From an uncultured beta proteobacterium (GTDB lineage Bacteria > Pseudomonadota > Gammaproteobacteria > Burkholderiales > Rhodocyclaceae): DNA of 35,043 bases. The stretch spans positions 1 through 35,043 of the forward strand of contig CAJBYR010000027.1 of the NCBI GenBank assembly GCA_903959855.1, in the 5' to 3' direction. Made by a program: the position numbers and the translations under genes. The notes beneath the pieces are model-generated. The model saw only the letters and a list, made by a program, of their open reading frames with translations, did not search any database and was not told the origin of the DNA. Shown here one piece after another: positions 2,112 through 28,848 of this stretch; the first letter of the stretch is position 1, and the number at the start of each line of letters is the position of its first letter.

Positions 2112-2224
2112 GGGTTCAAGCCTCGTGCCGGACGGTAAGAGTGCGCACCTTAGCCGATTTGCGCGGAGTTGTGCGAGGCGCCCTGCGCAGGACCGGCAAG
2201 AGTCGGCGCTGACGCGACGGCGAT

Positions 2225-4366
2225 TCAGCGCGCCGTCGCGGTTTCGCGCCGACGATAGCCCCGCCAGGCCGGCCAGATCGCCGCCGCGATCGCCAGCGCG
2301 ACAAGCAGCAGCGGCCAGACCACCGGCCGATTCCACTCGGTACGGCGTTCTGCGCGCAAGGTGGCATCCACGCGCTGGTACTTCAGGGTGTTGTGCCCCA
2401 CCTTCGAGGGTTTGCGATTCAGCAGCCAGGCATGGCGCAGGCTGTAGTCCTTGGGATGGAAGCCGAATACCCAGGGTGCATCGTGGCGCAGAATGTCGGT
2501 CATGCGGTCGATGATCTCCTGCCGCTGGGGGCTGTTCTCCATGGTCTTCATGCGCTCGAACAGGCGGTCGAATTCGGCGTTCTGGTAGTTGGCGGCGTTC
2601 TCACCGCTCTGTTTGACCTTGCTCTGCTTGCCATGCAGGAGAAACATGAAGTTCTCGGGGTCGGGATAGTCGGCGTTCCAGCCCCAGTAAAAGAGCTGCA
2701 CCGCACCCTTGCGTACTTTCTCCTGGAAGCGGTTGTAGTCGGTGCTGCGCACCACCAGTTGCACGTCGAGCTTGGCGAACTGCTTGTTCAACCAGTCGAT
2801 GCGCGCCTTGCCGCCGACGCCCGTCGCCGTGGTGTCGAGGTTGATGACCAGTGGCTCGCCGGTGGCGGCATCGCGCCCATTGGGCCAGCCGGCCTCGGCC
2901 AGCAGGCGCTTCGCCTCGGCCACGGGCTTGCGCCGGGCCTGGCCGTCCACCCAGTCGTAGCTGTAGCGGTTGATGCCGGACGCGCCGTCGCGGTGACCGA
3001 AGATGCCGGGCGGGATCAGCCCCTGGGCGGCGACGCCGCGGCCATTCTGGAAGATGGAAATGAATTCTTCCTGGTCGATGGCGATTGAGATCGCCTGGCG
3101 CAGCTTGCGGCCCCGTTCCGCTGTCCCGGGATCGGCGCCGCCGACCACCGGATCGAGCCAGTTGAAGCCCATGTACATGCTCGACGTCGCCACCGAGGTG
3201 GTGAGCACGATGCCCTGGGCTTTCATGCCGTCGGACAGGCTGATCTCGCCGGCAGCGACCTGCACCGCCTGGTCGAAGGAATCCGAGGAAATGCCCGAGG
3301 CATCGTAATAGCCCTGGAGGAACTTGTTCCAGTAGGGTATCTGCTCCTTCTCGCGGGTAAACACCACCTTGTCGATGAAGGGCAGCACCTGGCCGCAGTC
3401 CATCAGCAGTCCGGCCGCTTTGTCTTCCGCTTCGCCTTCGCAGGGATAGGTCTCGCGATGGAAGTTGGGATTCTTCTCCAGCACCATGCGCGCGTTGGGA
3501 TTGTTTTCGGTGAGCATGTAGGGCCCGGTGCCGATCGGGTACCAGTCCAGCGTCAGGTTTTTCTGTGCCATGCCTGGCTGGCTGTGAAACTTGTCGGCCT
3601 CCCATGGCATCGGGGCGAAGAAGGGCATCGCCAGCCAATACAGGAACTGAGGGTACTTCCCCTTGACGCGGATGCGATAGCGGTAACGGTCGATGGCCTC
3701 CACGCCTTCCAGCGTGTGCGTGCGCAGGTCGATCCAGGGCGTGTCCTTCTCCGCCTGCAGACGCTTGCCGTAGTCGCCGAGGCCGACGATGTATTCCTCC
3801 ATCAGCCCGAAGATCGGTGAGTGCAGGCGCGGATGGGCCAGGCGCTTGATGCCGTAAACATAATCCTCGGCAGTCAGCTCGCGGCTGTCGCGCCTGGCGA
3901 AATCGCCGAGCACATTCACGGCATCCAGTTGCGCGCGGCCCAGTGAGTGATAGGCGTAGGCCTCGCCTTCGCCGCGGGCGAAAGCGGGGTGCGGCTGGTA
4001 GCGGATCCCCGGCTTGATGCTGACAACGTAGTCGGTGAAGGCGATCTTCGCCGGGTCGGTGTTGGCCGGAAGTGCACGGCCCTGTGCATCCAGGTAACGC
4101 GGCTGCGGCACCGCCTCGGCGGTGGCGGCGATCAGTGCATAGGGGCGTTTGAGATAGTGGTACTGCAGCGGCGGTTCGTAGATCTGCGCCGTGAAGGTGA
4201 TCTCGTCCTCGCTATAGGACTGCACCGGATCGAGATGCTTGGGCCGGTCGGTAAATGCACTGTAGAGGATATTGCGGCCCCGGTCGGCCACCGGATAGGG
4301 GTCGTTCCAGGCGCTGCCGCAAGCTGCGAGCAACAGGGCGAAAAGGCTGGAAAGCAGGCCACGCAT
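2225..4366 (-). CDS. ABC-type peptide substrate-binding lipoprotein (SBP_bac_5)
   Basis: A 713-residue periplasmic solute-binding protein of the oligopeptide/dipeptide family (SBP_bac_5). The N-terminus has a lipoprotein signal, with LLLAAC placing the lipidated Cys at residue 16. The body has family hallmarks such as PIGTGPYML, RKLRQAISIAID and YWGWNADYPDPENF. It is larger than usual for the family (about 500-600). After the binding domain comes a hydrophobic stretch, VVWPLLLVALAIAAAIW, and a basic end WRGYRRRETATAR, which suggests a second, C-terminal membrane anchor. The ATG at 4366 starts a proper lipoprotein signal; a TTG at 4411 would bury it. No permease or ATPase gene for it lies nearby, so it is an orphan component here. 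The ligand cannot be told from sequence. Confidence 0.87.
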   Translation of the reverse strand: MRGLLSSLFALLLAACGSAWNDPYPVADRGRNILYSAFTDRPKHLDPVQSYSEDEITFTAQIYEPPLQYHYLKRPYALIAATAEAVPQPRYLDAQGRALPANTDPAKIAFTDYVVSIKPGIRYQPHPAFARGEGEAYAYHSLGRAQLDAVNVLGDFARRDSRELTAEDYVYGIKRLAHPRLHSPIFGLMEEYIVGLGDYGKRLQAEKDTPWIDLRTHTLEGVEAIDRYRYRIRVKGKYPQFLYWLAMPFFAPMPWEADKFHSQPGMAQKNLTLDWYPIGTGPYMLTENNPNARMVLEKNPNFHRETYPCEGEAEDKAAGLLMDCGQVLPFIDKVVFTREKEQIPYWNKFLQGYYDASGISSDSFDQAVQVAAGEISLSDGMKAQGIVLTTSVATSSMYMGFNWLDPVVGGADPGTAERGRKLRQAISIAIDQEEFISIFQNGRGVAAQGLIPPGIFGHRDGASGINRYSYDWVDGQARRKPVAEAKRLLAEAGWPNGRDAATGEPLVINLDTTATGVGGKARIDWLNKQFAKLDVQLVVRSTDYNRFQEKVRKGAVQLFYWGWNADYPDPENFMFLLHGKQSKVKQSGENAANYQNAEFDRLFERMKTMENSPQRQEIIDRMTDILRHDAPWVFGFHPKDYSLRHAWLLNRKPSKVGHNTLKYQRVDATLRAERRTEWNRPVVWPLLLVALAIAAAIWPAWRGYRRRETATAR

Positions 4367-4387
4367 GGCGTCCAGTTTAGCCGATCC

Positions 4388-4419
4388 GCTATAATTCACC
4401 GCTGGTTTCAACCAAGGAA
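4388..4419. promoter_or_regulatory. Divergent promoter region of the lipoprotein gene and fabI
   Basis: The 59-bp gap holds signals for both directions. On the plus strand a perfect TATAAT (4390-4395) lies about 30 bp before the fabI ATG, with no convincing -35, and the ribosome site AAGGAA is at 4414-4419. On the minus strand TTGGTT (4415-4410), 16 bp, TATAGC (4393-4388) points to the lipoprotein gene. The two -10 elements overlap, so the two promoters may exclude each other. Assigned by eye only. Confidence 0.42.
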
Positions 4420-4425
4420 ATAGCG

Positions 4426-5226
4426 ATGGGATTTCTCGCTGGCAAACGCATCCTGATCACCGGCCTGATCTCAAACCGGTCGATCGCCTACGGCATTGCC
4501 AAGGCCTGCCACCGCGAAGGCGCCGAACTCGCCTTCACCTATCAGAACGAACGCTTCAAGGACCGCATGGCGAAGTACGCGGGCGAGTTCGAGTCGACCG
4601 CCATCTATGCTTGCGACGTCTCGCAGGATGCGGAAATCGAAGCCGTATTCACCGAGTTGGGCAAACGCTGGGAGGGGCTCGACGGCCTGGTGCATTCGAT
4701 CGCCTTCGCCCCCAACGAAGCCATCGAAGGCGACTTCCTGGAAGGAATTTCGCGCGAAGGCTTCCGCATCGCCCATGACATTTCCTCCTACAGCTACCCG
4801 GCGCTGGCCAAGGCCGCCAGACCCCTGCTGCTGAAGGGCAACAAGCCGGCACTGCTGGCCCTGTCCTACCTGGGCGCCGTCCGCACCATGCCCAACTACA
4901 ACACCATGGGCCTGGCCAAGGCCAGCCTTGAGGCGGCCACCCGCTACCTCGCGTTTTGCCTCGGTCCGCAAGGTATCCGTGCCAATGCGCTCTCGGCCGG
5001 ACCGATCAAGACCCTGGCGGCCTCCGGTATCGGCAACTTCGGCAAACTGCTGGCCTACAACGCCCACCACGCGCCCTTGCGGCGCAATGTCACCGTCGAG
5101 GAAGTCGGCAATGCCGCGGCATTCCTGCTCTCCGACCTCGCCAGCGGCGTCACCGGCGAGATTCTGTATGTTGACGGCGGAACGCACACCACGGCGATGG
5201 GCAACGCTGATCCCTTGCCGGGTTGA
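4426..5226 (+). CDS. fabI: Enoyl-[acyl-carrier-protein] reductase (NADH)
   Basis: FabI catalyses the last step of each fatty-acid elongation cycle, the NADH-dependent reduction of trans-2-enoyl-ACP. The protein is 266 residues, a normal length. It starts [25 protein letters not shown], the FabI version of the Rossmann dinucleotide site. The catalytic residues are visible as Tyr148 in LSYLG and the Tyr158-x6-Lys165 pair in NYNTMGLAK. The end carries ILYVDGG, typical of the family. AAGGAA seven bases upstream supports the ATG at 4426. It is transcribed alone, divergent from the lipoprotein gene, and closed by a strong hairpin at 5241-5274. fabI next to ppiD is a familiar arrangement in betaproteobacteria. 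Confidence 0.97.
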
Positions 5227-5240
5227 GAAATTCACCGCAA

Positions 5241-5274
5241 ATGAAAAAGCCCGGGGTTTCCCGGGCTTTTTCAT
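5241..5274. terminator. Bidirectional Rho-independent terminator between fabI and ppiD
   Basis: A perfect 15-bp inverted repeat, ATGAAAAAGCCCGGG / CCCGGGCTTTTTCAT, encloses a four-base loop (GTTT). Five A on the left and five T on the right give a U-tract in either direction. It lies 14 bases after the fabI stop and 20 bases after the ppiD stop, so it should end both convergent transcripts. Confidence 0.9.
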
Positions 5275-5294
5275 TTGGGATCGCCGGCTGGCGG

Positions 5295-7193
5295 CTATTT
5301 TTCCTTGGCGTCCAGCACGGCCTTGTTGATCCTCACCGGGTGGGCGGCCCGCAGGCTGGATAGCCATGCGGCAAATTCCTCTTCGGCCACGGCACGGGCG
5401 TATGCCTGTTGCAAGGCAGCGGCACGCGGGTCGTCCTTGACGTTGGTAACGGCCTTGATTGCACTGATACGGTACAGGGCATAGCCCTTGCCCGGATGTG
5501 CCGTGCCGACGTAAGCCGGCAATTTGGCGGCATCAGCGCTGAAGATAGCCCGTATCGAGTCCGGAGCGAGACCTTGCGGCTCGCTCCGCCGGATAGCGTG
5601 GGAGGGCGACCACTTGAGATCTGTCGCCTCTCCTTTTTTCAGCTTGGCCAATTTGGCTTCGCCGTCCTTGATTGCCAGGCCCGCCGCTTCCTCAAGAACC
5701 AGGCGCTTCTCGACATCCGCCTTCACCGCCTCCAGCGACTGAACGGACGCCGGCTTGTGTTCCAGCATCCGAGCCGCCACCAGGGTGCCCGGGGCGACTT
5801 CAACGGCTTCGGTATTGCGCTTGTTCTTCAGCGCGTCGTCGGCAAACAGCGCCGTCGCGAGTTTGGCATTGTCGAAGGGTGGCGGGAGTTTGGCGCCCTT
5901 GGCCAGCCATGCCGTCTGTTTGACATCGAGCTTCCACTTCTCGGCCGCCGGCTTGAGGCTGTCCGACTGCTCGTACACCGTGTTGCCGAAAGCTTCGGCC
6001 GCTTCGCTGTACTTCTTCATGGCGGCTTCGCGCTTGAGTTCGGCGGCGATCTCAGCCTTGACCTCATCAAAGGGTTTCACGCGCTCGGGACGAATGCCGG
6101 CGACGCGGATGATGTGAAAGCCGAAATCGGAGCGTACCAGCTCGGAAATTTCGCCGTCCTTCATGCTGAAAACGGCATCCTCGAATGCCTTCACCATCGC
6201 GCCGCGGCTGAACCAGTCGAGGTCGCCACCCTTCTCCGCCGAACCTGGATCCTGCGAATGCTGCTTGGCCAGCCTGGCGAAGTCGGCGGGCGTTTTCTTC
6301 ACTTGGGCGAGTATGCCTTCGGCCTTTTCCCTGGCCGCCTTGGCCTCCACATCGGATCCCGCCTTGAGCAGGATGTGGCTGGCGCGGCGCGACTCAGGTG
6401 ACTTGTAACGGGCTTCGTTGGTCTTGTAGGCCGCCTTGACAGCATCCTCGGCCGGCGCCGCCTGCGTCGCCATTGCGTCACGGCTGAGGACGATAAATTC
6501 GGCACGCACCTGTTCCGGCAGTTCGAACTGCTTGCGATTGGCATCGTAATATTTCTGTACGGCATCAGCGGCAAGCTTCACCTGGCTGGCATAGGCATCC
6601 GGGTACAGCGCTGCCTCACTGACATCGCGCTGCTCCAGCTGGGTCTGCAGCCAGCGGCCGGCCGCCGCCTGACCGGTAATGCCGCCTTCGCTCACCGGAA
6701 GCGCCAACTGCTGCATGGCGAGATCCTGGCGCAGTCGCGACTCGAACATTTCCTTGCTCATGCCCTGCCCGGCAACCAGTGCTTCGTAGCGTTCTTTGGA
6801 AAACTTGCCGTTTTCCTGCAGCGACGGCACCGCGGCGATGAACTGCGCGAGTTGCTGGTCGCCGACCGACATCTTCGCCTTGCGCGCCTGCTCGGCAAGC
6901 AGGCGCTGCGTGATCAGCGAATCGAGCACGACGCGACGCATCGCGGGCGACTCGAACAAGACCGGGTCGATCTTGCCGCCGAGCTGCGCGCGGGCGCGAT
7001 CCTGTTGCTCGCGCATCGCTCCCTGCAGTTCCTGCTGAGTGATCTTGGCGCCGCCGACCGTGGCAAGCTCGACGCCGCTATCGGCATTGCGCACGTACGA
7101 CTCGACGCCCCAGAACGCAAAGGGCAGCGTGATCACGGCAAGAAAGACCTGCGTGATTCTCTTGTTGTTGCGGACGATGTCGAACAAGCTCAT
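5295..7193 (-). CDS. ppiD: Periplasmic folding chaperone PpiD (SurA_N and parvulin domains)
   Basis: PpiD is an inner-membrane-anchored chaperone that faces the periplasm and helps proteins leaving the Sec translocon. The 632-residue protein starts with the short cytoplasmic MSLFDIVRNNKRITQ, then one transmembrane helix (about 16-32, VFLAVITLPFAFWGVES). A SurA-like N-domain follows (about 35-190), then a parvulin domain (about 265-365) with RRASHILLKA, DLDWFSRGAMV and FGFHIIRV. The length matches E. coli PpiD (623). The ATG at 7193 is chosen because it begins the anchor; an upstream AGGG is a weak ribosome site. It sits downstream of lon and tRNA-Val, as in many proteobacteria. Isomerase activity is not certain, since PpiD parvulin domains are often poor catalysts. 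Confidence 0.94.
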   Translation of the reverse strand: MSLFDIVRNNKRITQVFLAVITLPFAFWGVESYVRNADSGVELATVGGAKITQQELQGAMREQQDRARAQLGGKIDPVLFESPAMRRVVLDSLITQRLLAEQARKAKMSVGDQQLAQFIAAVPSLQENGKFSKERYEALVAGQGMSKEMFESRLRQDLAMQQLALPVSEGGITGQAAAGRWLQTQLEQRDVSEAALYPDAYASQVKLAADAVQKYYDANRKQFELPEQVRAEFIVLSRDAMATQAAPAEDAVKAAYKTNEARYKSPESRRASHILLKAGSDVEAKAAREKAEGILAQVKKTPADFARLAKQHSQDPGSAEKGGDLDWFSRGAMVKAFEDAVFSMKDGEISELVRSDFGFHIIRVAGIRPERVKPFDEVKAEIAAELKREAAMKKYSEAAEAFGNTVYEQSDSLKPAAEKWKLDVKQTAWLAKGAKLPPPFDNAKLATALFADDALKNKRNTEAVEVAPGTLVAARMLEHKPASVQSLEAVKADVEKRLVLEEAAGLAIKDGEAKLAKLKKGEATDLKWSPSHAIRRSEPQGLAPDSIRAIFSADAAKLPAYVGTAHPGKGYALYRISAIKAVTNVKDDPRAAALQQAYARAVAEEEFAAWLSSLRAAHPVRINKAVLDAKEK

Positions 7194-9889: not shown

Positions 9890-11158
9890 TTAGTTCGAAC
9901 CCGATACCTTGGGCTGGTCGGCGTAGATCATCAACGGCTGGGCGCCGGTTTCTATCGTACTCTCGTCGATCACGACCTTGCTGACGCTTTCCATGGTCGG
10001 CAGTTCATACATGGTGTCGAGCAGGACGTTTTCCAGGATCGAGCGCAGGCCGCGGGCGCCGGTCTTGCGCTTGAGCGCCTTCTTGGCGATGGCCTGCAGT
10101 GCGGAGGGGCGCACCTCAAGCTCGACGCCTTCCATCGAGAACAGCTTCTGGTATTGCTTGATCAAAGCGTTCTTGGGCTCGATGAGGATCTCTACCAGAG
10201 CCGTTTCGTCGAGTTCCCTGAGGGTGGCGATCACCGGCAGGCGGCCGATCAGTTCGGGAATCAGGCCGAACTTGATCAGGTCCTCGGGTTCCACCTGCTT
10301 CAGCATCTCGTCTACGCCACCAGCGTCACGGCTGCGCACCTCGGCACCAAAGCCGATGCCACCCTTTTCGGAACGGTTGCGGATCACCTTGTCGAGGCCG
10401 TCGAAGGCGCCACCGCAGATGAACAGGATGTTGGTGGTGTCGATCTGGATGAAATCCTGGTTCGGATGCTTGCGCCCGCCCTGCGGCGGAATGCTCGCCA
10501 CCGTGCCCTCGATCAGCTTCAGCAGCGCCTGCTGCACGCCTTCGCCGGAAACATCACGGGTGATCGAGGGGTTGTCGGACTTGCGCGAAATCTTGTCGAT
10601 CTCGTCGATGTAGACGATGCCCTGCTGCGCCTTCTCGACCTCGTGGTCGCATTTCTGCAGCAGCTTCTGGATGATGTTCTCGACGTCCTCGCCGACATAG
10701 CCGGCTTCGGTCAGCGTCGTCGCATCGGCCATGACGAACGGGACGTTTAGCATGCGCGCCAGGGTCTGCGCCAGCAGCGTCTTGCCCGAGCCGGTGGGGC
10801 CGATCAGCAGGATGTTGCTCTTGGCCAGTTCGACGCCGTCGCTGCCCTTGTCCTGATGGCGGATGCGCTTGTAGTGGTTGTACACCGCGACGGCGAGGAT
10901 CTTCTTCGCCGAATCCTGGCCGATCACGTACTGATCGAGGATGTCGCGGATTTCCTTGGGCGCCGGCAATTCGCGCTTGACGGCGCCGGCCGGTTCGGCG
11001 GCGATCTCATCGCGAATGATGTCGTTGCACAGCTCGATGCACTCATCGCAGATAAAGACCGAAGGGCCGGCAATGAGCTTTTTGACCTCATGCTGGCTCT
11101 TGCCGCAGAAGGAGCAATACAGCAGCTTGTCGGCGCTGCCCGTTTTCTTTTCCGCCAT
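9890..11158 (-). CDS. clpX: ATP-dependent Clp protease ATP-binding subunit ClpX
   Basis: ClpX unfolds tagged substrates and feeds them into ClpP. The 422-residue protein is of standard length. The N-terminal zinc-binding domain has four Cys ligands (15, 18, 37, 40). Walker A is GPTGSGKT (120-127), Walker B is VYIDEIDKI, and the pore loop is GYVG. The IGF loop that docks ClpP is present in [10 protein letters not shown]. The gene starts 24 bases after the clpP stop on the same strand, so the two are almost certainly co-transcribed and form the ClpXP protease. Confidence 0.98.
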
Positions 11159-11182
11159 CTTCGTCTCCGTCGGCGCGAAAGT

Positions 11183-11851
11183 TTACGCTTTGGCTAACTC
11201 AGCCGCCTGATCCCGGCTGGTCAGCACCTTGTCAACCAGACCGTACTCTACCGCAGCCTCGGCCGACAGGAAGTTATCCCGATCGGTGTCGCGCTCAACA
11301 CGATCGATGTCCTGCCCGGTATGGTGCGCCAGCATCTTGTTCAGCTTCTGCTTGAGGAACAGGATTTCCTTGGCATGGATCTCGATGTCCGAAGCCTGGC
11401 CCTGGAAGCCGCCCATCGGCTGGTGGATCATCACGCGCGAATTGGGCAGGCAGAAGCGTTTGCCCTTTTCGCCCGCCGCCAGCAGGAAGGCACCCATGCT
11501 CGCCGCCTGCCCGATGCACAGTGTCGACACATCGGGCTTGATGAACTGCATGGTGTCGTAGATCGCCATACCCGCCGTGACCGAACCGCCCGGCGAGTTG
11601 ATATAGAAAAATATGTCCTTGTCGGGATTTTCCGACTCAAGGAACAACAGCTGCGCCACGATGAGGTTGGCTGTCGAGTCATTGACCGGACCGACCAGAA
11701 ATATCACCCGCTCGCGCAACAGCCGCGAGTAGATGTCGTAGGCGCGCTCGCCGCGACCGCTGGTCTCGATGACCATGGGCACCAGGCCCAGGGCCTGGGT
11801 ATCCGGAACCGGCGCGTCGTGCGCACCGCCAAACTGTCGCGAACCGTACAT
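11183..11851 (-). CDS. clpP: ATP-dependent Clp protease proteolytic subunit ClpP
   Basis: ClpP is the barrel-shaped serine peptidase that degrades proteins delivered by ClpX or other Clp ATPases. The catalytic triad is Ser118 (GQAASMG), His143 (MIHQP) and Asp192 (DTDRDNF), with Ser-His spacing of 25 as in E. coli. [13 protein letters not shown] gives the usual handle region. Three starts are possible: TTG at 11872, ATG at 11857 and ATG at 11851. I chose 11851 (MYGSRQ, 222 residues) because GGAG ends six bases before it, whereas it abuts 11857 directly. The first 20-25 residues may be a propeptide that is removed. It starts 17 bases after the tig stop. Confidence 0.96.
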
Positions 11852-11868
11852 GGACATCTCCGTCAGAA

Positions 11869-13191
11869 TCAAGCAGCGTTGCCCATCAGCGCATCGAAGG
11901 CGACGGGAGCTTCGGTAACCCGGGCAGTGGCTAGCACCCAGTTGACCACGTTGTTTTCCAGCGCCAGAGCTTCGGCTTCGGCCAGGCGCTGTGGCTGGGA
12001 ATAGTACCAGCGCACCACTTCCTTCGGGTCTTCGAAGGTCTCGGCAAACTCGTCGACGATGGCGCGCACCTGTTCGGGTTTGACGTGCAGGTCGCGGGCC
12101 TTGACCAGTTCGGCCAGCAACAGCCCGAGCTTGACGCGACGCGAGGCCTGGTCGGTAAACCAGGTCGGGTCGACCGGCATGTTCTTCATCATCATGCCGC
12201 GCTGCTCCATGTCACGCTTGGCAGCCTCGGCCATCTGCTCGGCCTCCATCATCACCAGGGCCTTGGGCACCTCGATCGGATTGACCTTGAGCAGGGCATC
12301 CATGACCTGCTCTTTGACCTTCGCCAGCAGGCGCTTCTTGACTTCGCGCTCCAGGTTGGCGCGCACTTCGGCACGCATCTTGGTTGTGTCGCCGTCGGCA
12401 ACGCCCAGTTGCTTCGCAAACTCGGCATCGAGTTCAGGCAGTTGGGGCGCTTCCACCGACTTCACCGTCATCTCGAACTGAACCGTGTTGCCGGCCAGTT
12501 CGGCGGCCTGGTAGTCGGCCGGGAAGGCTACATCGAATGTCTTGTGGTCGCCCGCCCGGACGCCGACCAGTTGCGTTTCGAAGTCGGGGAGCATCATGCC
12601 GCCACCGACCATCACGGTGTAGTTGTCCGCCTTGCCGCCGGGAAACTCCTCACCGTTCTTGCGGCCGATGAAATCGATGATCAGGCGATCGCCGCTTTCC
12701 GATGCACGCTCGGCAGGGCTGTAGGTCGTGCGCTGCTTGCGCAGCACGTCGAGAGTGGTGTCGACTTCGGTCTCGGTCACTGTCAGCGTCGGCTTTTCGA
12801 TGGCCTCGCCGGACACATCTCCCAGGCTGATCTCGGGATAAACCTCGAAGATCGCGGTAAAACCCAGCTGGCCTTCGGCGGCGTCCGCTTTGGGCTCGAT
12901 GCGCGGGTAGCCGGCGACGCGCAAATTCTGCTCGCGCACCTTGTCGCCGTAGGTCTTTTCCACCGCGGCGCCGATCGCTTCGGAACGCGCCTGCGACCCG
13001 TACTGCTGCGCAACCATCTTCATCGGCACCTTGCCCGGACGGAAACCCGCCATCTTCACCGTGCGCGACATCTGCTTGAGGCGCTGGTCGACATCCTTTT
13101 CGATGTCAGCAAGCACCACCGTCATGTCGATGCGTCGTTCCAGCGTGCTCACCGCCTCGGTAGCCGCTACCGTCGTTGCCGTTTCCGTCAT
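11869..13191 (-). CDS. tig: Trigger factor, ribosome-associated chaperone
   Basis: Trigger factor binds the ribosome exit tunnel and shields nascent chains. The 440-residue protein has the ribosome-binding N-domain with signature GFRPGKVP (about 50-57), a central FKBP-type isomerase domain (about 165-245, with [19 protein letters not shown]), and the helical C-terminal chaperone arms. Length is typical (432 in E. coli). It is the first protein gene of the tig-clpP-clpX-lon series and starts 86 bases after the tRNA-Leu gene, with a terminator-like hairpin between. The ribosome site is weak (GGA about nine bases upstream). Confidence 0.97.
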
Positions 13192-20974: not shown

Positions 20975-21553
20975 TCAGGCGGCGACGATTGGCGGAGCCT
21001 CGGGCAAAGTCCGGGGGGATCCGCGCACCGCACAGATACGCTGCACCACCGCCGGGCGGAAACCATCAATCTCGCCTTGCTCAAATGCCACAATGTTCAG
21101 CTTGGGCCGCAACACGTCTAGCAACTCTCCCTGCCGTAGCAGGAAGGCGGGGTTGGATGGTTTGCCGAAGCGCTCGTTGCCGACCATGAAGGTTTCGTAG
21201 ATCAAGACTCCGCCAACTTCCAGCGCATTCATGATCTGCGGCAAGAGCGGCCGGAAAAGATAGTTGGTGACGACAATGCCCTCAAAAACCTTGCCGTAAT
21301 AAGGCCAGGGACCTCCCTCAAGATCCGCCACCCGCGTCGCTATCCGTGGCTCTTGAGCCACCAGATCGGCGATGGCCGCGGCGTCGCGATCCACGGCCTC
21401 GACCTGATAACCCTGCCGCAGCAGAAACCGCGAATGCCGGCCAGACCCGCACGCAAGATCGAGCACGCGCCCGCCGGGCACGATCAGCGACGCAAATCGC
21501 CGCACCCACTGTGATGCATTTCCACTCATACCGGTTGCCATGTCGGGTATCAT
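20975..21553 (-). CDS. Class I SAM-dependent methyltransferase
   Basis: A 192-residue protein with a single Rossmann-type methyltransferase domain. Motif I is VLDLACGSGRHS (about 30-41), the acidic end of strand 2 is VEAVDRD, and GIVVTNYLFRPLLPQI and GGVLIYETFMVGN correspond to the later strands. It resembles TehB-like or small unassigned methyltransferases; the substrate is unknown. ATG codons at 21553, 21541 and 21529 are possible; 21553 is kept because AAGGA lies upstream, although at a long spacing of 11. It is divergent from the hemerythrin cyclase across 51 bp that contain two palindromes. Confidence 0.8.
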   Translation of the reverse strand: MIPDMATGMSGNASQWVRRFASLIVPGGRVLDLACGSGRHSRFLLRQGYQVEAVDRDAAAIADLVAQEPRIATRVADLEGGPWPYYGKVFEGIVVTNYLFRPLLPQIMNALEVGGVLIYETFMVGNERFGKPSNPAFLLRQGELLDVLRPKLNIVAFEQGEIDGFRPAVVQRICAVRGSPRTLPEAPPIVAA

Positions 21554-21604: not shown

Positions 21605-22945
21605 ATGTCCGTTCCATCCAGCATCCCGCCAGGATCCGCCCCGGAGAACACGGACGCCCTGCGCGAACAGCTGAGCAAAACGACCGCGGCCTACAGCCGC
21701 TTCGTGCCGCGGGAATTCCTCAACCTGCTGGGCATCGAGGATATACGCAAGGTCGAACTCGGGCAGCAGGTCGAGCGCAAGATGACGATCCTGTTCTGCG
21801 ACATCCGCAACTTTACCGCCCTGTCGGAAACCATGAGTCCGCAGGAGAACTTCAATTTCCTGAATTCCTACCTGGTGCAGATGGAGCCGGTGATCACCGC
21901 CCACGGCGGATTCATCGACAAATACATCGGCGACGCGATCATGGCGCTGTTTCCCGGTTCGCCCGATGAAGCCCTGCGCTGCGGTCAGGCCATGCTGCGC
22001 CAGCTCCAGGACTATAACGACGGGCGCCAGCGCGCCGGCTACCGGCCCATCCGCATCGGCATCGGCATCAATACCGGAATCGTCATCCTCGGCACCATCG
22101 GCGGCGCGGCGCGCATGGACGGAACTGTGATCGGCGACGCGGTGAATCTCGCCGCGCGCCTGGAACGGCTGACCAAGGAATACCGGGTCTCGATGCTGAT
22201 CAGCGACTACACCCTGTATTCGCTCGACCAGCCCAGCGAGTGGGCAATCCGCTTTCTCGACCGCACCCAGGTGCGCGGCAAGCAGGGCTCGCACTCCGTA
22301 TACGAGGTGTTCAACAACGACCCGCCTGCGCTGGTCCTGGCAAAGAAGCGAACCATCAAGCTATTCGAGCAGGCACTGGCCTGTTACCACATCGGCGATC
22401 AAACCGCCGCGCGACAACGCCTGGTCGATTACGCCGCTGCCGTACCGGAAGACTCGGCGGTGCACGTGTATCTCGAACGTTGCAATCCATTGGCGGAAAA
22501 CTACGGCTCGCCGCGACCGGAACCGATGCCCCACTGGCACGAGGAATACTCCTACGGTCTGGCCATGGTGGACACCGTGCATCAGGATCTGCTGACCAAC
22601 ATGAATGCGCTCGCAAAGGCCCTTCACGACAACAACCTCGATCTCTCCGGAAAGTTGCTCGACCAGATTCGCGTCGCGGCGCGCAAGGATTTCGGCGTCG
22701 AGGAACAACTGATGGGTGAATCGTCCTACCCATTCCTGGATTTGCACGCGCGCCAGCACCAGCGCTTTTTCGAGTATTTCGAAGAACTCCGACGCGAGAT
22801 CGAATCGCGCGAGGAAGACAGAATTTACCTGATCTTCCGCGTGAAGCGCTTCTTCACCGGCTGGCTGGTCAATCACATCGTCAGCGCCGACCGGCATTTT
22901 GGTCATTTCCGCAGGTCTGCAAGCAGCCCCGCGCTGCCAGCCTGA
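21605..22945 (+). CDS. Class III nucleotide cyclase with C-terminal hemerythrin domain
   Basis: A 446-residue soluble fusion. Residues about 58-200 form the cyclase catalytic domain: metal-binding Asp66 (FCDIRNFT) and Asp110 (YIGDAIMAL), purine-selecting Lys106 and Asp178 (IGDAVNLAARLE), and transition-state Asn181 and Arg185. That set predicts cAMP. A TPR-like helical segment follows (about 246-293). Residues about 308-437 match a bacterial hemerythrin domain: His326 (VDTVHQDLL), Glu366 (FGVEEQLM), His381 and His385 (HARQH), His424 and Asp429 (WLVNHIVSAD). The ligand position four residues before Glu366, normally His, is Asp362. Such domains carry an oxo-bridged diiron site that binds oxygen, so oxygen or redox control of cAMP synthesis is likely but inferred. 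No membrane segment. Confidence 0.88.
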   Translation: MSVPSSIPPGSAPENTDALREQLSKTTAAYSRFVPREFLNLLGIEDIRKVELGQQVERKMTILFCDIRNFTALSETMSPQENFNFLNSYLVQMEPVITAHGGFIDKYIGDAIMALFPGSPDEALRCGQAMLRQLQDYNDGRQRAGYRPIRIGIGINTGIVILGTIGGAARMDGTVIGDAVNLAARLERLTKEYRVSMLISDYTLYSLDQPSEWAIRFLDRTQVRGKQGSHSVYEVFNNDPPALVLAKKRTIKLFEQALACYHIGDQTAARQRLVDYAAAVPEDSAVHVYLERCNPLAENYGSPRPEPMPHWHEEYSYGLAMVDTVHQDLLTNMNALAKALHDNNLDLSGKLLDQIRVAARKDFGVEEQLMGESSYPFLDLHARQHQRFFEYFEELRREIESREEDRIYLIFRVKRFFTGWLVNHIVSADRHFGHFRRSASSPALPA

Positions 22946-23084: not shown

Positions 23085-25775
23085 ATGCATAACGAACGTC
23101 ATTACCTGCACACCCTCTTCGAGCCGGCTTCCATCGCCATCATCGGTGCCTCGGAAACGCCCAATTCGATCGGCGTGACCCTGGTGCGCAACATGCTCGA
23201 CTCGGGCTACAAGGGCAAACTGTTCTTCGTCAACCCCAAGCATGAAACCGTGTTCGGCCAGAAGGCCTATGCCACGGTCGACACCATTCCGCAACGCCTG
23301 GATATCGCCGTGATCTGCACCAAGGCGGCAACCGTTCCCGAGATCATCGATGCCTGCGGCCGCGCCGGCTGCAAGAACGCCATCGTGATTTCCGGCGGCT
23401 TCTCCGAGGCCGGCCCGCGCGGCGCCTCGCTGGAGCGCGCAGCACTGGAGAATGCCCGGCGCCACGGCATGCGCCTGCTCGGTCCCAACTGCCTCGGGCT
23501 GATGCGTCCGGGGAGCCAGCTCAACCTGACCTTCGGCCACGGCTTCGCCAATGCCGGCACGATTGGCCTGATTTCCCAGTCCGGCGCACTGTGCACCGCC
23601 ATCCTCGACTGGGCGCTGCCCAACAAGGTCGGCTTCTCCAACGTGGTATCGCTGGGCGCCGAAGGTGACATCGACTTCGGCGAAGTCCTCGACTACATGG
23701 TCTCCGACCCGCGCACGGAAAACATTTTTCTCTACATCGAAGGCATCAAGAACGCACGTCGCTTCATGAGCGCTTTGCGTGCCGCCGCGCGCTGCAAGCC
23801 GGTGTTGCTGATCAAGGTCGGCAAGCACCCGGCCGGCGAGAAGGCAGCGCTGTCGCACACCGGGGCCCTGGTCGGCGCCGACGACGTCTTCGACGCCGCC
23901 CTGCGCCGCGCCGGCGTGGTCCGCCTGGCCAATGTCGGTCAGATGTACGCCGCGGCGTCCGCCCTGTTCTCGCACTTCCGTCCGCGCGGCAAACGCCTGG
24001 CCATCATCACCAACGGCGGCGGACCCGGCGTGATGGCCGCCGACCATGCGGCCGACATCGGCATTCCGCTGGCCCAGTTGTCGGCCGCAACCCTGGCCAA
24101 GCTGGGCGAAAAGCTGCCGGTCACCAGCGCGCGCACCAATCCGATTGACATCCTCGGCGACGCCGATCCGGCACGCTATGGCGCCGCGCTGCAAGCCTGC
24201 ATCGACGATGACGGCGTGGACGGGGTGCTGGCCATCCTGACCCCGCAGGCGATGACCGATCCCACCCAGGCGGCACGCACCGTGATCGAAATCGCGCGTC
24301 AATCCGACAAACCGCTGGTGACCTGCTGGATGGGCGAGGAGCAGGTCAGCGAGGCGCGCAAGCTGTTTCAGGGCGCAGCGATACCGACCTTCAGAACGCC
24401 GGAACCGGCAGTCGACCTGTTCTCCCACATCTCCAACTACTACCGCAACCGCCAGTTGCTGATGCAGTCGCCGCCCTCGATTTCCGAGCAGGCGCCGCCG
24501 CGCCTCGAGTCGGCGCGACTGGTGATCGAAACCGCGCTCATGGAAGGGCGCAAGGTCTTGAACGAGATGGAGTCGAAGGCGGTGCTCGCCGCCTTCCGCA
24601 TCCCGATCGCCCAGACCGTGGTGGCGCGCTCGGCCTCCGAAGCCATGGTGCTGGCCGAAGAACTGGGCCTGCCGGTGGTGATGAAGATCGACTCACCGCA
24701 GATCGTGCACAAGGCCGATTCCGGCGGTGTGCGCCTCAACCTCAACAGCCTGGCCGCCGTGCGCGACTCCTGGCTGGAGATCATGGAGGAAGTGAAGAAA
24801 AACCGGCCCGATGCGCACATCAATGGCATTGGCATCGAGCCCATGATCCAGAAGCCCAATGGCCGCGAACTGGTCGTCGGCATGGTCCGCGACAAGATCT
24901 TCGGCCCGACCATCGTCTTCGGTCCCGGCGGCGGCGGCGTCGAAACCCACCTCAGCGACCGCGCCGTGGCCCTGCCGCCACTCAACTCGGTGCTGGTCGC
25001 CGACATGCTGGCATCAACCCGCACCACGGCGCGACTCGGCGAATTCCGCAACATGCCGCCGGTCAATATGCAGGCCATCGAGACCGTGCTGCTCAATGTC
25101 TCGGCCATGGTCTGCGAACTGCCGTGGATCAGGGAGATGGACATCAACCCGCTGATCGTCGACGAGAACACAGCAGTCGCGGTCGACGCCCGCATCACCA
25201 TCGACAACCTGCCGATCACCGCCGGTCGCTATGACCACATGGCGATCCACCCCTACCCCTCGCACTTGCAGACCAGCTACCAGGCCAAGGATGGCACGCA
25301 CGTGACGATCCGCCCGATACGACCCGAAGACGTACGCATCGAGCAGGAGTTCGTGCGCAACCTTTCGGCCGAGGCGCGCTACATGCGTTTCATGAACACC
25401 ATCCGCGAAGTCTCGCCGGCACAGTTGGTGCGCCTGACCCAGATCGACTACGACCGCGAGATGGCCTTCGTCGCCACCATTGACGACCACGGCACAGAAA
25501 AGGAAGTGGGCGTGGCACGCTACGCCACCAACCCGGACGGCGAATCCTGCGAATTCGCCATCGTCGTCGCCGATGACTGGCAAGGCAAGGGCCTGGCACG
25601 CCGCCTGATGGGCGTCATCATCGACACCGCCAGGAGCCGCGGCCTGCGCTACATGCACGGCGATTTCCTGTCCGAGAATTCGCGCATGCTGGCTTTCGTC
25701 GCCAGCCTCGGCTTCGTCCTCTCCGCGCACCCGGAAGATCCGGGCCTCAAGCGCGGTGTGCTGACGCTGAATTGA
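23085..25775 (+). CDS. NDP-forming acyl-CoA synthetase/GNAT acetyltransferase fusion (Pat-like)
   Basis: An 896-residue protein with the layout of the lysine acetyltransferase Pat/PatZ. The order is a CoA-binding domain (about 10-140, IAIIGASETPNSIG), a succinyl-CoA-ligase-like domain (about 150-460), an ATP-grasp domain (about 490-715, VVMKIDSPQIVHKADSGGV) and a C-terminal GNAT domain (about 738-896, with acetyl-CoA loop WQGKGLARR). Pat proteins acetylate and inactivate acetyl-CoA synthetase and other enzymes. In this copy the synthetase His is kept (His258 in SHTGAL), while, as I recall, enteric Pat has lost it, so it may also make acyl-CoA. It follows the hemerythrin cyclase after 139 bp and shares one base with tag (TGATG). 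Confidence 0.9.
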   Translation: MHNERHYLHTLFEPASIAIIGASETPNSIGVTLVRNMLDSGYKGKLFFVNPKHETVFGQKAYATVDTIPQRLDIAVICTKAATVPEIIDACGRAGCKNAIVISGGFSEAGPRGASLERAALENARRHGMRLLGPNCLGLMRPGSQLNLTFGHGFANAGTIGLISQSGALCTAILDWALPNKVGFSNVVSLGAEGDIDFGEVLDYMVSDPRTENIFLYIEGIKNARRFMSALRAAARCKPVLLIKVGKHPAGEKAALSHTGALVGADDVFDAALRRAGVVRLANVGQMYAAASALFSHFRPRGKRLAIITNGGGPGVMAADHAADIGIPLAQLSAATLAKLGEKLPVTSARTNPIDILGDADPARYGAALQACIDDDGVDGVLAILTPQAMTDPTQAARTVIEIARQSDKPLVTCWMGEEQVSEARKLFQGAAIPTFRTPEPAVDLFSHISNYYRNRQLLMQSPPSISEQAPPRLESARLVIETALMEGRKVLNEMESKAVLAAFRIPIAQTVVARSASEAMVLAEELGLPVVMKIDSPQIVHKADSGGVRLNLNSLAAVRDSWLEIMEEVKKNRPDAHINGIGIEPMIQKPNGRELVVGMVRDKIFGPTIVFGPGGGGVETHLSDRAVALPPLNSVLVADMLASTRTTARLGEFRNMPPVNMQAIETVLLNVSAMVCELPWIREMDINPLIVDENTAVAVDARITIDNLPITAGRYDHMAIHPYPSHLQTSYQAKDGTHVTIRPIRPEDVRIEQEFVRNLSAEARYMRFMNTIREVSPAQLVRLTQIDYDREMAFVATIDDHGTEKEVGVARYATNPDGESCEFAIVVADDWQGKGLARRLMGVIIDTARSRGLRYMHGDFLSENSRMLAFVASLGFVLSAHPEDPGLKRGVLTLN

Positions 25776-26490: not shown

Positions 26491-28848
26491 ATGCTGATCG
26501 GCTTTGAAACCATCCGCGAAATTCTCGAGCATCGCCTGCACCAGGATGACATCGAGCGCCTGCTCCACGGCCTCGACGAAAGCGGCAAGGCGGAACTGTT
26601 CTACCGCATCACCGAAATGCTGCGCCGGACCACGGCGCTGGCCGACATCGCCAACCGGGTCAACGACAGCCTCTCGCTGGATGTGCTCTTCCCGCGCCTG
26701 ATGGAAGTCGTCACCGAAGCGCTCAACGCCGACCGCAGCACGCTCTTCCTCCACGACCCCGAGACCGGCGATCTGTTCTCGCGCGTGTTGCAGGGCGACA
26801 CCATCGGCGAGATCCGCTTTCCCAGCAATCTCGGCGTGGCCGGTTCAGTATTCACCCGCGGCGCTGCCGAAATCATCGGCGACGCCTATGCCGACACCCG
26901 CTTCAACCAGGACGTCGACCGCAAGACCGGCTACCGCACCCGCAACATCCTCTGCGTGCCGATCCGCAACAAGAAGCGCGAGGTGATCGGCGTCACCCAG
27001 GTGCTGAACAAGCTCTCCGGTGACTTCGACGCCGAGGACAAGCGCCTGCTCGAAGGCCTTTCGCTGCAAGCCTCAGCGGCCCTGGAAAACGCCCGCCTGT
27101 TCGAGAAGGTGGAGCGCCAGCAGCGCGAAGAAGCGATGCTGCTCGAAGTCAGCATTTCCATCGTCTCCGAGATCCACCTCGACCCGCTGCTGGAAAAAAT
27201 AATGGCAGCCGCGACCACGCTTCTGAGCGCCGACCGCGGCACGCTGTTTCTCTACGACCCTGCCGCCGAGGAGTTGTACTCGCGCGTCGCCGGCGGCATC
27301 ACCGCGGAAGGCATCCGCTTTCCGGCCAATGCCGGACTCGCTGGCGAGTGCTTCAGCAACGGCAAGGTCATAAACCTGGCCGACGCCTACGCCGATTCGC
27401 GCTTCAACCAGGAAGTCGATCGCCACACCGGCTACCGCACCCACAGCATGCTGTGCATGCCCATCGTCGCCCGCGGCGAGCGCAAGATCGGCGTCATGCA
27501 GATCCTCAATCGACGCGGCGGCCCCTTCGGTCCCGCCGAGGAACGGCGCCTGCGCGCCTTCTGCGCCCAGGCCGCAGTGGCCATCGAAAACGCCCAGCTG
27601 TTCGAGGAAGTGCGCGCCGAGCGCAACTACAACGAGGCCATCCTCCATTCCATGAACAACGCCGTGCTGACTCTCGACGCGGCCGGCGTGGTGCGCAAGG
27701 TCAACGGCGCGGCGGCGCGCATCCTGCGCAGGGGCGCGGAAGACCTGGTCGGACGCGAACTCGACGAACTCTTCCCCGGTCGCAACCGCTGGGTGGTGAA
27801 CAGCCTGGCCAAGGTGCGGGATTCCGGCCGCACCGACATCACCATCGATACCGACCTCGTCATCGAAGGCAGCGAAGCCGTATCGGTCAATCTGGTCACC
27901 GTGCCATTGACCAGCATGCGCGACGAGCCCATCGGCTACATGCTGATGATGGAGGACATCACCCGCGAGAAGCGCCTGCGCAACACCATGTCGCGCTACA
28001 TGAGCAAATCGGTGGTGGACAAGCTGATGGAAAGCGGCGAGGCAGAACTCGGCGGCATCGGCCGCGACGTCAGCGTGCTGTTTTCCGACATCCGCGGCTT
28101 CACCTCGATTTCCGAGCGCCTCGGCGCCAAGGAGACGGTGGCTCTGCTCAACGAATACTTCACCGACATGGTCGACATTGTCTTCGCCCACAACGGCGTG
28201 CTCGACAAGTACATCGGCGACATGATCATGGCCGTGTTCGGTTCGGTGCTGCAAAGCGAAGAGGACGCCAGCAATGCGGTGATCGTCGGCAACAAGATGA
28301 TGACCGGCCTGCACCAGCTCAACCGCCGGCGCATCGCGCGCGGCTCGGAACCGATCCGCATCGGAGTCGGCATCAGTACCGGCAATGTCGTCGCGGGCAA
28401 TATCGGGTCGATGAAGCGCATGGAGTACACAGTGATCGGCGACCGCGTCAACCTGGCCGAACGGCTGGAAAGCGCCAACAAGTTTTACGGCACGTCCATC
28501 CTGCTTTGCGATACCACCTGGGCGGCGGTAAAGCACCACGCGGCGACCCGCGAGATCGACCTGATCCGCGTGCGCGGACGTGCTACGCCGGTCGCCATCT
28601 ATGAGGCGCTCGGCCATCACTCCGAGGACAGCTTTCCGCATCGCGAGGAGGTGCTGGAAGCCTTCTCTACCGGCCTGCGGCACTACCGCCGCCGCGACTG
28701 GTTCGGCGCAGAGCGTCATTTCAGCGACGCGCTGGATGCCCACCCGATGGACGGACCGACCCGGATCTACCTCGAACGCTGCCAGTTCTATCGCAAGCAC
28801 CCGCCCGCCGATGACTGGGATGGCGTCTGGGAAATGCTGAACAAGTAG
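26491..28848 (+). CDS. Adenylate cyclase with GAF-GAF-PAS sensory region
   Basis: A 785-residue soluble class III cyclase. After an N-terminal helix come GAF-A (about 58-200), GAF-B (about 228-370), a PAS domain (about 380-490), the catalytic domain (about 520-665) and a TPR-like tail (about 718-765). Catalytic residues are complete: Asp533 (FSDIRGFT) and Asp577 (DKYIGDMIM) for metals, Lys573 and Asp651 for adenine, Asn654 and Arg658 for catalysis. The architecture matches Anabaena CyaB1/CyaB2, whose GAF domains bind cAMP. Both GAFs keep a partial NKFDE-like pattern (NK..F...D at 173-183; NR..F...EE at 340-351) and a shared RFNQ.VDR.TGYRT block. cAMP or cGMP feedback is therefore plausible. 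It is preceded by a good promoter. Confidence 0.92.
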   Translation: MLIGFETIREILEHRLHQDDIERLLHGLDESGKAELFYRITEMLRRTTALADIANRVNDSLSLDVLFPRLMEVVTEALNADRSTLFLHDPETGDLFSRVLQGDTIGEIRFPSNLGVAGSVFTRGAAEIIGDAYADTRFNQDVDRKTGYRTRNILCVPIRNKKREVIGVTQVLNKLSGDFDAEDKRLLEGLSLQASAALENARLFEKVERQQREEAMLLEVSISIVSEIHLDPLLEKIMAAATTLLSADRGTLFLYDPAAEELYSRVAGGITAEGIRFPANAGLAGECFSNGKVINLADAYADSRFNQEVDRHTGYRTHSMLCMPIVARGERKIGVMQILNRRGGPFGPAEERRLRAFCAQAAVAIENAQLFEEVRAERNYNEAILHSMNNAVLTLDAAGVVRKVNGAAARILRRGAEDLVGRELDELFPGRNRWVVNSLAKVRDSGRTDITIDTDLVIEGSEAVSVNLVTVPLTSMRDEPIGYMLMMEDITREKRLRNTMSRYMSKSVVDKLMESGEAELGGIGRDVSVLFSDIRGFTSISERLGAKETVALLNEYFTDMVDIVFAHNGVLDKYIGDMIMAVFGSVLQSEEDASNAVIVGNKMMTGLHQLNRRRIARGSEPIRIGVGISTGNVVAGNIGSMKRMEYTVIGDRVNLAERLESANKFYGTSILLCDTTWAAVKHHAATREIDLIRVRGRATPVAIYEALGHHSEDSFPHREEVLEAFSTGLRHYRRRDWFGAERHFSDALDAHPMDGPTRIYLERCQFYRKHPPADDWDGVWEMLNK

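Follow-up and report, generated by a model that had tools for sequence, protein, structure and literature searches.

The window, by which the whole analyzed stretch of 35,043 nucleotides is meant, harbors a gene whose product (hereafter the window protein) joins a class III nucleotide cyclase to a C-terminal hemerythrin (Hr) domain. The open reading frame was found exactly where an earlier note on this DNA had located it, and its start lies 51 bases from the start of a divergent methyltransferase-like gene. The features of the locus, with the evidence on which each assignment is based, are the following:

20975..21553, minus strand: SAM methyltransferase-like gene, divergent (Pfam; present in 21 of the 23 named loci of the window's clade)
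21605..22945, plus strand: gene of the predicted hemerythrin-tailed class III adenylate cyclase (open reading frame with ATG, 446 aa; Pfam/NCBIfam; AlphaFold2)
21773..22288, plus strand: class III cyclase catalytic domain, residues 57-228 (PF00211; PDB alignments to Cya2 and OaPAC; Foldseek)
22124..22126, plus strand: codon of Thr174, the putative second base-selecting residue (alignment to OaPAC; Thr in 98/99 family rows, 1 gap)
22325..22480, plus strand: helical TPR-like linker, residues 241-292 (about), followed by Cys293 (DSSP on the model)
22532..22909, plus strand: C-terminal Hr domain, residues 310-435 (TIGR02481; DcrH-Hr by sequence and fold; isolated-domain model)
22688..22690, plus strand: codon of Asp362, which replaces the canonical iron-ligand His of helix B (alignment to DcrH-Hr; family table)
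23085..25775, plus strand: downstream neighbor, a Pat-like acyl-CoA-synthetase/GNAT protein with CoA-binding, ATP-grasp and GNAT domains (Pfam)
26491-28848, plus strand: third gene downstream, another class III cyclase, with one PAS and two GAF domains (N-terminal part present in 12 of the 23 named clade loci)

The two ends of the protein were assigned by profile, sequence and fold searches. In Pfam, residues 57-228 match PF00211 (Guanylate_cyc; E 1.9e-19, 70.4 bits with a cut-off of 21.9), and the search against PF01814 (Hemerythrin) that the earlier note had proposed finds residues 319-430 above the cut-off (E 1.2e-6, 29.5 vs 25.3 bits); this Hr match is missing at E 1e-3 in 4/55 family members. 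In NCBIfam, the hemerythrin domain TIGR02481 covers residues 311-434 (75.6 bits, cut-off 51.75) and the bacteriohemerythrin model NF033749 remains below its curated cut-off (76.5 vs 84 bits). A Pfam match to GGDEF is likewise below cut-off (15.9 vs 23.8 bits); the output domain of the window protein is PF00211 and not one that acts on c-di-GMP (GGDEF or HD-GYP). In PDB sequence searches the cyclase part matches Cya2, OaPAC, CyaB and others, and the C-terminal 139 aa match the Hr domain of DcrH, a Desulfovibrio vulgaris chemoreceptor (DcrH-Hr; PDB 2avk, 2awc), at E 1.7e-12, DcrH-Hr being the best PDB match both by sequence and by fold. The full-length AlphaFold2 model, a single chain without metal built from an input alignment of 55 fusions, has a mean pLDDT of 90.3 and a pTM of 0.88 and shows a cyclase fold, four linker helices and a four-helix bundle; the whole chain matches class III cyclases, including CyaC, CyaB and photoactivated adenylyl cyclases, among the 50 Foldseek matches listed. 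A structure prediction of the isolated Hr domain, also suggested in the earlier note, gave a hemerythrin four-helix bundle with a pLDDT of 92.3, for which DcrH-Hr is the top Foldseek match (TM 0.84/0.87, rmsd 1.9), followed by other hemerythrins. The stretch between the two domains had been described as a TPR-like linker, and this description holds in the sense that four model helices (241-249, 251-262, 266-279 and 284-292; DSSP) fill it and that a few members of the family (3/55 for TPR_9) match TPR models at E 1e-3, Pfam giving no TPR match in the window protein itself. Arg292 and Cys293, at the end of the linker, are invariant in both full-length alignments. Pfam, NCBIfam, the PDB search, AlphaFold2 and Foldseek thus concur that, as judged from sequence and model, the cyclase-hemerythrin fusion is genuine, with an Hr domain and a second-messenger enzyme on one chain.

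A survey of the same architecture in other genomes, which had been recommended as well, found it conserved. Named-species genomes were scanned with the linker-Hr alignment and the best 80 of 98 confirmed relatives were kept; the order cyclase-linker-Hr lies in one open frame in 80/80 kept loci, of which L077 and L087 are cut by a contig end within the Hr domain and L069 has an internal gap. Most of these loci belong to Sulfuritalea, which the nearest relatives indicate as the probable genus of the window, and other Betaproteobacteria, and the rest to Desulfobacterota, Magnetococcales, Latescibacterota and others. Carriers of the fusion include other Rhodocyclaceae, Sterolibacterium, Gallionella, Sideroxydans, Rhodospirillales, Magnetococcales, Latescibacterota and Hydrogenedentota, as well as deltaproteobacterial records (Smithella, Syntrophorhabdaceae, Desulfobacteraceae) that are grouped here as Desulfobacterota. 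Genome samples of increasing breadth were searched as well. Of 297 genomes in the family sample, 70 gave a match, which lacked the Hr part in 6, and at least 64 carry the fusion; of 369 in the class sample, 43 matched at least the cyclase part, and the fusion was found in at least 1, the window's own; of 398 in the phylum sample, 22 gave a match and at least 10 carry the fusion. These counts are lower bounds because only the best few candidates per genome were scored, at strict E-values. Within the genus, the ortholog was matched in 30/30 other genomes examined, which rules out a chance or assembly fusion; three of these copies are incomplete (those of G001 and G003 through a contig end, that of G004 through an internal gap), and in G024 the aligned stretch contains one stop. 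When the window protein is compared with four close relatives, dN/dS of the Hr part is 0.119, 0.086, 0.075 and 0.083 and that of the cyclase part 0.012-0.079, with some synonymous distances exceeding 1 and being imprecise. Since the architecture is conserved and, by these estimates, under purifying selection, it is judged not to be a chance join. The same cyclase core is also present, without this Hr part, in open frames of ~1,800 aa in G036, G507, G554, G587 and G638, which suggests a shared module that combines with different partners.

Residues were counted in 99 distinct fusions, which remained of 134 extracted ones after removal of identical or contained sequences; L052, a match that lacks Hr, and L003-L008, cyclases lacking this Hr, had been left out beforehand, and L001 is the window itself. 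Asp66, Lys106, Asp110, Asp178, Asn181 and Arg185 are all found at the positions where the earlier note had put the class III catalytic residues. We take Asp66 and Asp110 to be the metal residues and Asn181 and Arg185 to be the transition-state residues, and with these the two metal Asp and the transition-state Asn and Arg of a class III cyclase are present. What had to be revised is the base-selecting residue: Asp178 is invariant in the family alignments, and the alignment to OaPAC rules it out for this role, as Thr174 holds the position. Lys106 and Thr174 align with the Lys and Thr of the adenylyl cyclase OaPAC while the guanylyl cyclase Cya2 has Glu and Gly there in the same alignment, and for this reason the cyclase looks ATP-type, through a Lys/Thr pair (ATP-type enzymes having Lys with Asp or Thr) rather than through Asp178. 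The catalytic residues are nearly invariant among the distinct fusions (Lys106 and Asp110 99/99; Asp66, Thr174 and Asn181 98/99; Arg185 97/99). An output of cGMP, or of mixed cNMPs, instead of cAMP is highly improbable with Lys106 at 99/99, where guanylyl cyclases have Glu (PMC4215837), and with both positions as in OaPAC and not as in Cya2, even though Cya2 (2w01) is the best solved sequence match and a study of Ma1120 names Lys and Asp as the pair of adenylyl cyclases and counts Thr among the second-position residues of guanylyl cyclases (PMC4215837). The proposal of a cAMP-type cyclase joined to a hemerythrin fold is therefore borne out in its main lines by the Lys/Thr pair, the retained catalytic residues and the genuine Hr fold. 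In one same-genus copy (L053 / L069), ~39 residues of the catalytic domain, among them Thr174, Asn181 and Arg185, are missing in frame and the Hr domain is kept; because of these missing residues the copy may be an inactive form.

The C-terminal hemerythrin domain announced in the earlier note was recovered with PF01814, TIGR02481 and DcrH-Hr by sequence and fold, but its metal site is noncanonical, Asp362 standing in for the helix-B His, and the HxxxE motif to which this position belongs had gone unlisted. The helix-B His presumably corresponds to His54 of animal hemerythrin and is taken here to be a ligand of the O2-binding iron (Fe2). In hemerythrin, three His are found on Fe1 and two on Fe2, O2 is bound at Fe2, and the canonical seven-ligand motif is H-HxxxE-HxxxH-HxxxxD (PMC9388753). 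The window protein does not have this full motif: six of the seven ligands are present (His326, Glu366, His381, His385, His424 and Asp429), and helix B reads KDFGVEE vs EHFGYEE in DcrH-Hr. A misalignment was ruled out as the cause of the missing His, since Phe363, Glu366/367 and Met370 around the site are conserved and the helix-B stretch of the window protein, IRVAARKDFGVEEQLM, contains no His. Among the 99 distinct fusions the position is occupied by His in 45, Asp in 29, Gln in 12, Leu in 8, Ser in 3, and Val and Glu in 1 each, and 29/99 have the full canonical ligand set. The remaining ligands vary much less: His385 is present in 99/99, Glu366 in 97/99, His424 in 97/99 (2 gaps), His326 in 96/99 and Asp429 in 96/99 (2 gaps, 1 Glu). 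His381 is present in 84/99, with Gln in the other 15. These 15 (e.g., L105, L113, L121 and L050) form a second type of altered site, in which the first His of HxxxH is Gln and the helix-B His is retained, and they are mostly deltaproteobacterial and Latescibacterota records.

The window's genome (4.26 Mb) was used as a control for the helix-B position. It contains 24 hemerythrin-domain matches, and of the 23 other than the window protein 20 were fetched, three of them being too distant to count; the helix-B His is present in 17/17 confidently alignable domains. As these other Hr domains keep the His, its loss is, on the sequences of this one genome, a trait of the fusion family and not of the organism's hemerythrins in general. 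The Gln-type paralog of the same genome, on contig C101, is not listed by the Pfam hemerythrin search. Alteration of helix B is known but uncommon among surveyed bacterial Hr sequences: 58/327 were altered at ligands or helices, 11 alterations lay in helix B, and the altered sequences were mostly single-domain proteins (PMC2556348); ligand variation has also been reported in 106 single-domain Hr sequences (PMC4919030). His431 (codon 22895-22897) was considered as a compensating ligand and is not claimed as one, because it is conserved in proteins with a canonical site too (91/99 fusions in all) and lies two residues past Asp429 on the same helix. Rows that keep the His and rows that lack it differ at nine more Hr positions, for which relatedness is as good an explanation as coupling.

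A quick tree on the cyclase-linker part (98 rows, L069 being omitted for its internal gap; 33/95 inner branches open) places the window in a 31-row clade with 28 Asp, 1 Glu, 1 Ser and 1 Val at the helix-B position. Gln corresponds to a 12-row paralog clade, and 7/8 Leu rows are part of a Sterolibacterium-like group. By parsimony at least 4 changes between His and not-His, and at least 8 among all states, are counted, both of them minimum values on an uncertain tree. Parts of the window's neighborhood recur at four Rhodocyclaceae loci that keep the canonical His (L096, L108, L116 and L124), which suggests that the His-to-Asp difference arose inside one orthologous locus. Variants also occur side by side: G001 has four fusions in one genome, with an Asp site (cut at the contig end), a Gln site, a canonical site and an HxxxH-Gln site, and in Sideroxydans two cyclase-hemerythrin genes lie on opposite strands of one locus (L128 and L130), one with the canonical His and the other with Ser at the helix-B site.

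Of 30 rows from the window's clade, 28 retain all six other ligands (L077 and L087, which end short of the last helix, are omitted from this count), one of the two incomplete rows being without His326 and the other without Glu366; L087, outside the count, is also without His326 and has Asn. His381, His385, His424 and Asp429 are each present in 30/30, and conservation averages 0.75 over the non-ligand Hr positions of these rows. About 32% of the non-ligand positions are themselves conserved at >=96%, so that high conservation alone is no proof of metal binding. The low dN/dS of the Hr part together with this ligand retention nevertheless suggests that the altered metal site looks maintained rather than decaying; for the window's clade both observations argue against decay of the Hr domain and for a working, altered metal site. 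Because it varies across the family (D, Q, L, S, V, E), the altered helix-B residue may be no ligand at all, and a ligand role at this position may be unneeded. That variability, which extends to Leu in 8/99 and Val in 1/99, is also what would be seen if the Hr part were a metal-poor structural or dimerisation module and the cyclase were constitutive or regulated otherwise, through the linker or a partner protein. We regard such a module as quite unlikely, given that the other ligands rank among the domain's most conserved residues, four of them reaching 30/30 against the non-ligand mean, and that none of the 12 Gln-type rows has lost any of the other six ligands.

The surroundings of the gene are shared by its closest relatives. 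Besides the methyltransferase-like gene, the Pat-like gene downstream is shared by 21 of the 23 named clade loci, and in the remaining two the contig ends within the fusion; Tag occurs in 16 of the 23 and the GAF-GAF-PAS cyclase in 12, several loci ending before these two. By eye, the latter cyclase has a TPR-like tail akin to the linker of the fusion. Related Pat acetyltransferases are cAMP-controlled in mycobacteria, and a link from cAMP to protein acetylation via the Pat-like neighbor is a possibility worth considering. The window's genome also has 35 matches to cNMP-binding domains, 33 of them over the cut-off, which makes cAMP effectors plausible. Additionally, members of the family lie next to genes of c-di-GMP enzymes. 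Upstream of the Gln-type paralog, and on its strand, lies a GGDEF-EAL gene in 10/11 named loci (L106, L079-L084, L086, L090 and L091), the eleventh (L085) being without upstream sequence. In L106 this is a PAS-GGDEF-EAL gene of 1,327 aa (1198-5181, plus strand) that ends 57 bases before the listed start of the fusion (5239-6702, plus strand), and at the Gln-type locus of the window's genome an EAL gene occupies the equivalent place as a separate ORF of 316 aa (L002, 3017-3967, minus strand). Canonical cyclase-hemerythrin copies (L067, L070 and L093) are followed by a hemerythrin-GGDEF gene, with domains confirmed for L067, where it lies at 11110-12234 (plus strand), 22 bases from the cyclase-hemerythrin gene; the pair forms a cassette between the Pat-like gene and Tag.

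Taken together, these results are best read, with a probability of roughly 0.55, as a soluble class III adenylate cyclase controlled by a C-terminal six-ligand Hr domain via a TPR-like linker. We infer that the chain dimerises, that ATP is its substrate in practice and that the Hr domain binds iron. The metal-binding four-helix bundle would change conformation upon oxidation or reduction of the iron (or upon its loading), and the helical linker would relay this change to the cyclase dimer, by which the two domains would be coupled. With Asp362, the six-ligand site would be expected to have no reversible hold on O2 and to be oxidised fast, and the cell would read redox state or O2 exposure, the putative physiological signal, as a change in cAMP. 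As one His fewer on the O2-binding iron should weaken the hold on O2, the site probably senses redox state or O2 exposure rather than binding O2 reversibly, as analogy with known sensors also indicates. The direction of control may be one in which the reduced form is the more active, for which we have a slight preference.

Several known systems can be compared with this proposal. As in DcrH, the sensor of the window protein is C-terminal, but the output of DcrH is a chemoreceptor signalling domain instead of a cyclase, and DcrH-Hr has His where the window protein has Asp362. Bhr-DGC of Vibrio cholerae is ~10 times more active when reduced than when oxidised, Bhr-HD-GYP of Ferrovum is active only when reduced, and an O2 adduct was seen in neither (PMC9388753). 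Like these two, the window protein carries hemerythrin on the chain of a second-messenger enzyme; unlike them, since both work with c-di-GMP and have an N-terminal Hr domain, it combines a class III cyclase with a C-terminal one, and whereas the iron ligands of Bhr-HD-GYP are described as completely conserved (PMC9388753), one ligand is absent from it. FBXL5 and BRUTUS have Hr-like sites with an altered ligand pattern that serve iron and redox sensing, but they are E3 ubiquitin-ligase regulators of animals and plants and are described there without a cyclase (PMC12022348). After their example the D- or Q-type Hr domain might report the availability of iron or another metal and not O2, in that the weakened second site would load only with plentiful iron and O2 and loading would gate the cyclase. 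This would agree with one ligand being lost repeatedly while the others mostly hold, and Hr-like iron-sensing domains do exist in FBXL5 and BTS/BTSL2, where coordination is asymmetric and the two irons differ in lability (PMC12022348); we nonetheless consider it unlikely, as the helix-B His is kept in 45/99 fusions, and the full canonical set in 29/99, within the same architecture, and iron-uptake proteins number 0/10 among the proteins scanned around the gene. The same scan bears on a reaction of the metal site with NO, H2O2 or another small oxidant in place of O2: Hr-like diiron proteins acting on NO or peroxide are known (PMC8913304), yet 0/10 proteins scanned point to NO or peroxide metabolism, and we hold such an input to be distinctly unlikely.

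The preferred reading, a cyclase switched by redox state or O2 exposure, would not be the first link between oxygen and cAMP. The earlier note had presumed such a link to be uncharacterised, and this did not hold: Leishmania has a globin-coupled heme oxygen-sensor adenylate cyclase that is also soluble and coupled to an oxygen sensor (PMC5827161), and a 2026 review counts adenylate cyclases among putative globin-coupled sensors (PMC13401364). The Leishmania enzyme is, however, eukaryotic and has a heme-globin sensor with no hemerythrin in its published description, unlike the window protein (PMC5827161). On the hemerythrin side, a review of hemerythrin sensors names a chemoreceptor, a diguanylate cyclase and an HD-GYP phosphodiesterase (PMC9388753), and a survey of Hr partners names MCP, GGDEF, histidine kinase and CheY-like, with ~20 partner regions unidentified in that survey (PMC2556348). 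No report of a hemerythrin-adenylate cyclase was found in the literature searched, of which the list behind the 56 Hr domain architectures reported in PMC4919030 might include one. Among hemerythrin-coupled enzymes, this one would stand out by its new output, the C-terminal position of its sensor and its modified site; oxygen-linked adenylate cyclase via globin is already known.

For the family as a whole, a tentative and rather doubtful proposal is that of hemerythrin-gated adenylate cyclases from which the helix-B His has been removed repeatedly with the rest of the site kept, the variants coexisting as graded sensors of O2, redox state or iron that report in cAMP. If true, cAMP-reporting Hr sensors would stand next to c-di-GMP enzymes reporting the same input, and the six-ligand hemerythrin would be a distinct class of non-heme redox switch, unable to carry O2. 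The natural series of His, Asp, Gln, Leu and Ser at one ligand is ready for probing the role of that ligand, and the fusion suggests a compact soluble cAMP reporter of redox state. The family would add cAMP to chemotaxis and c-di-GMP as outputs of hemerythrin sensors (PMC9388753), and it would bring an O2 or redox input onto the cAMP signalling of bacteria whose record titles point largely to groundwater, lakes and similar samples as their source.
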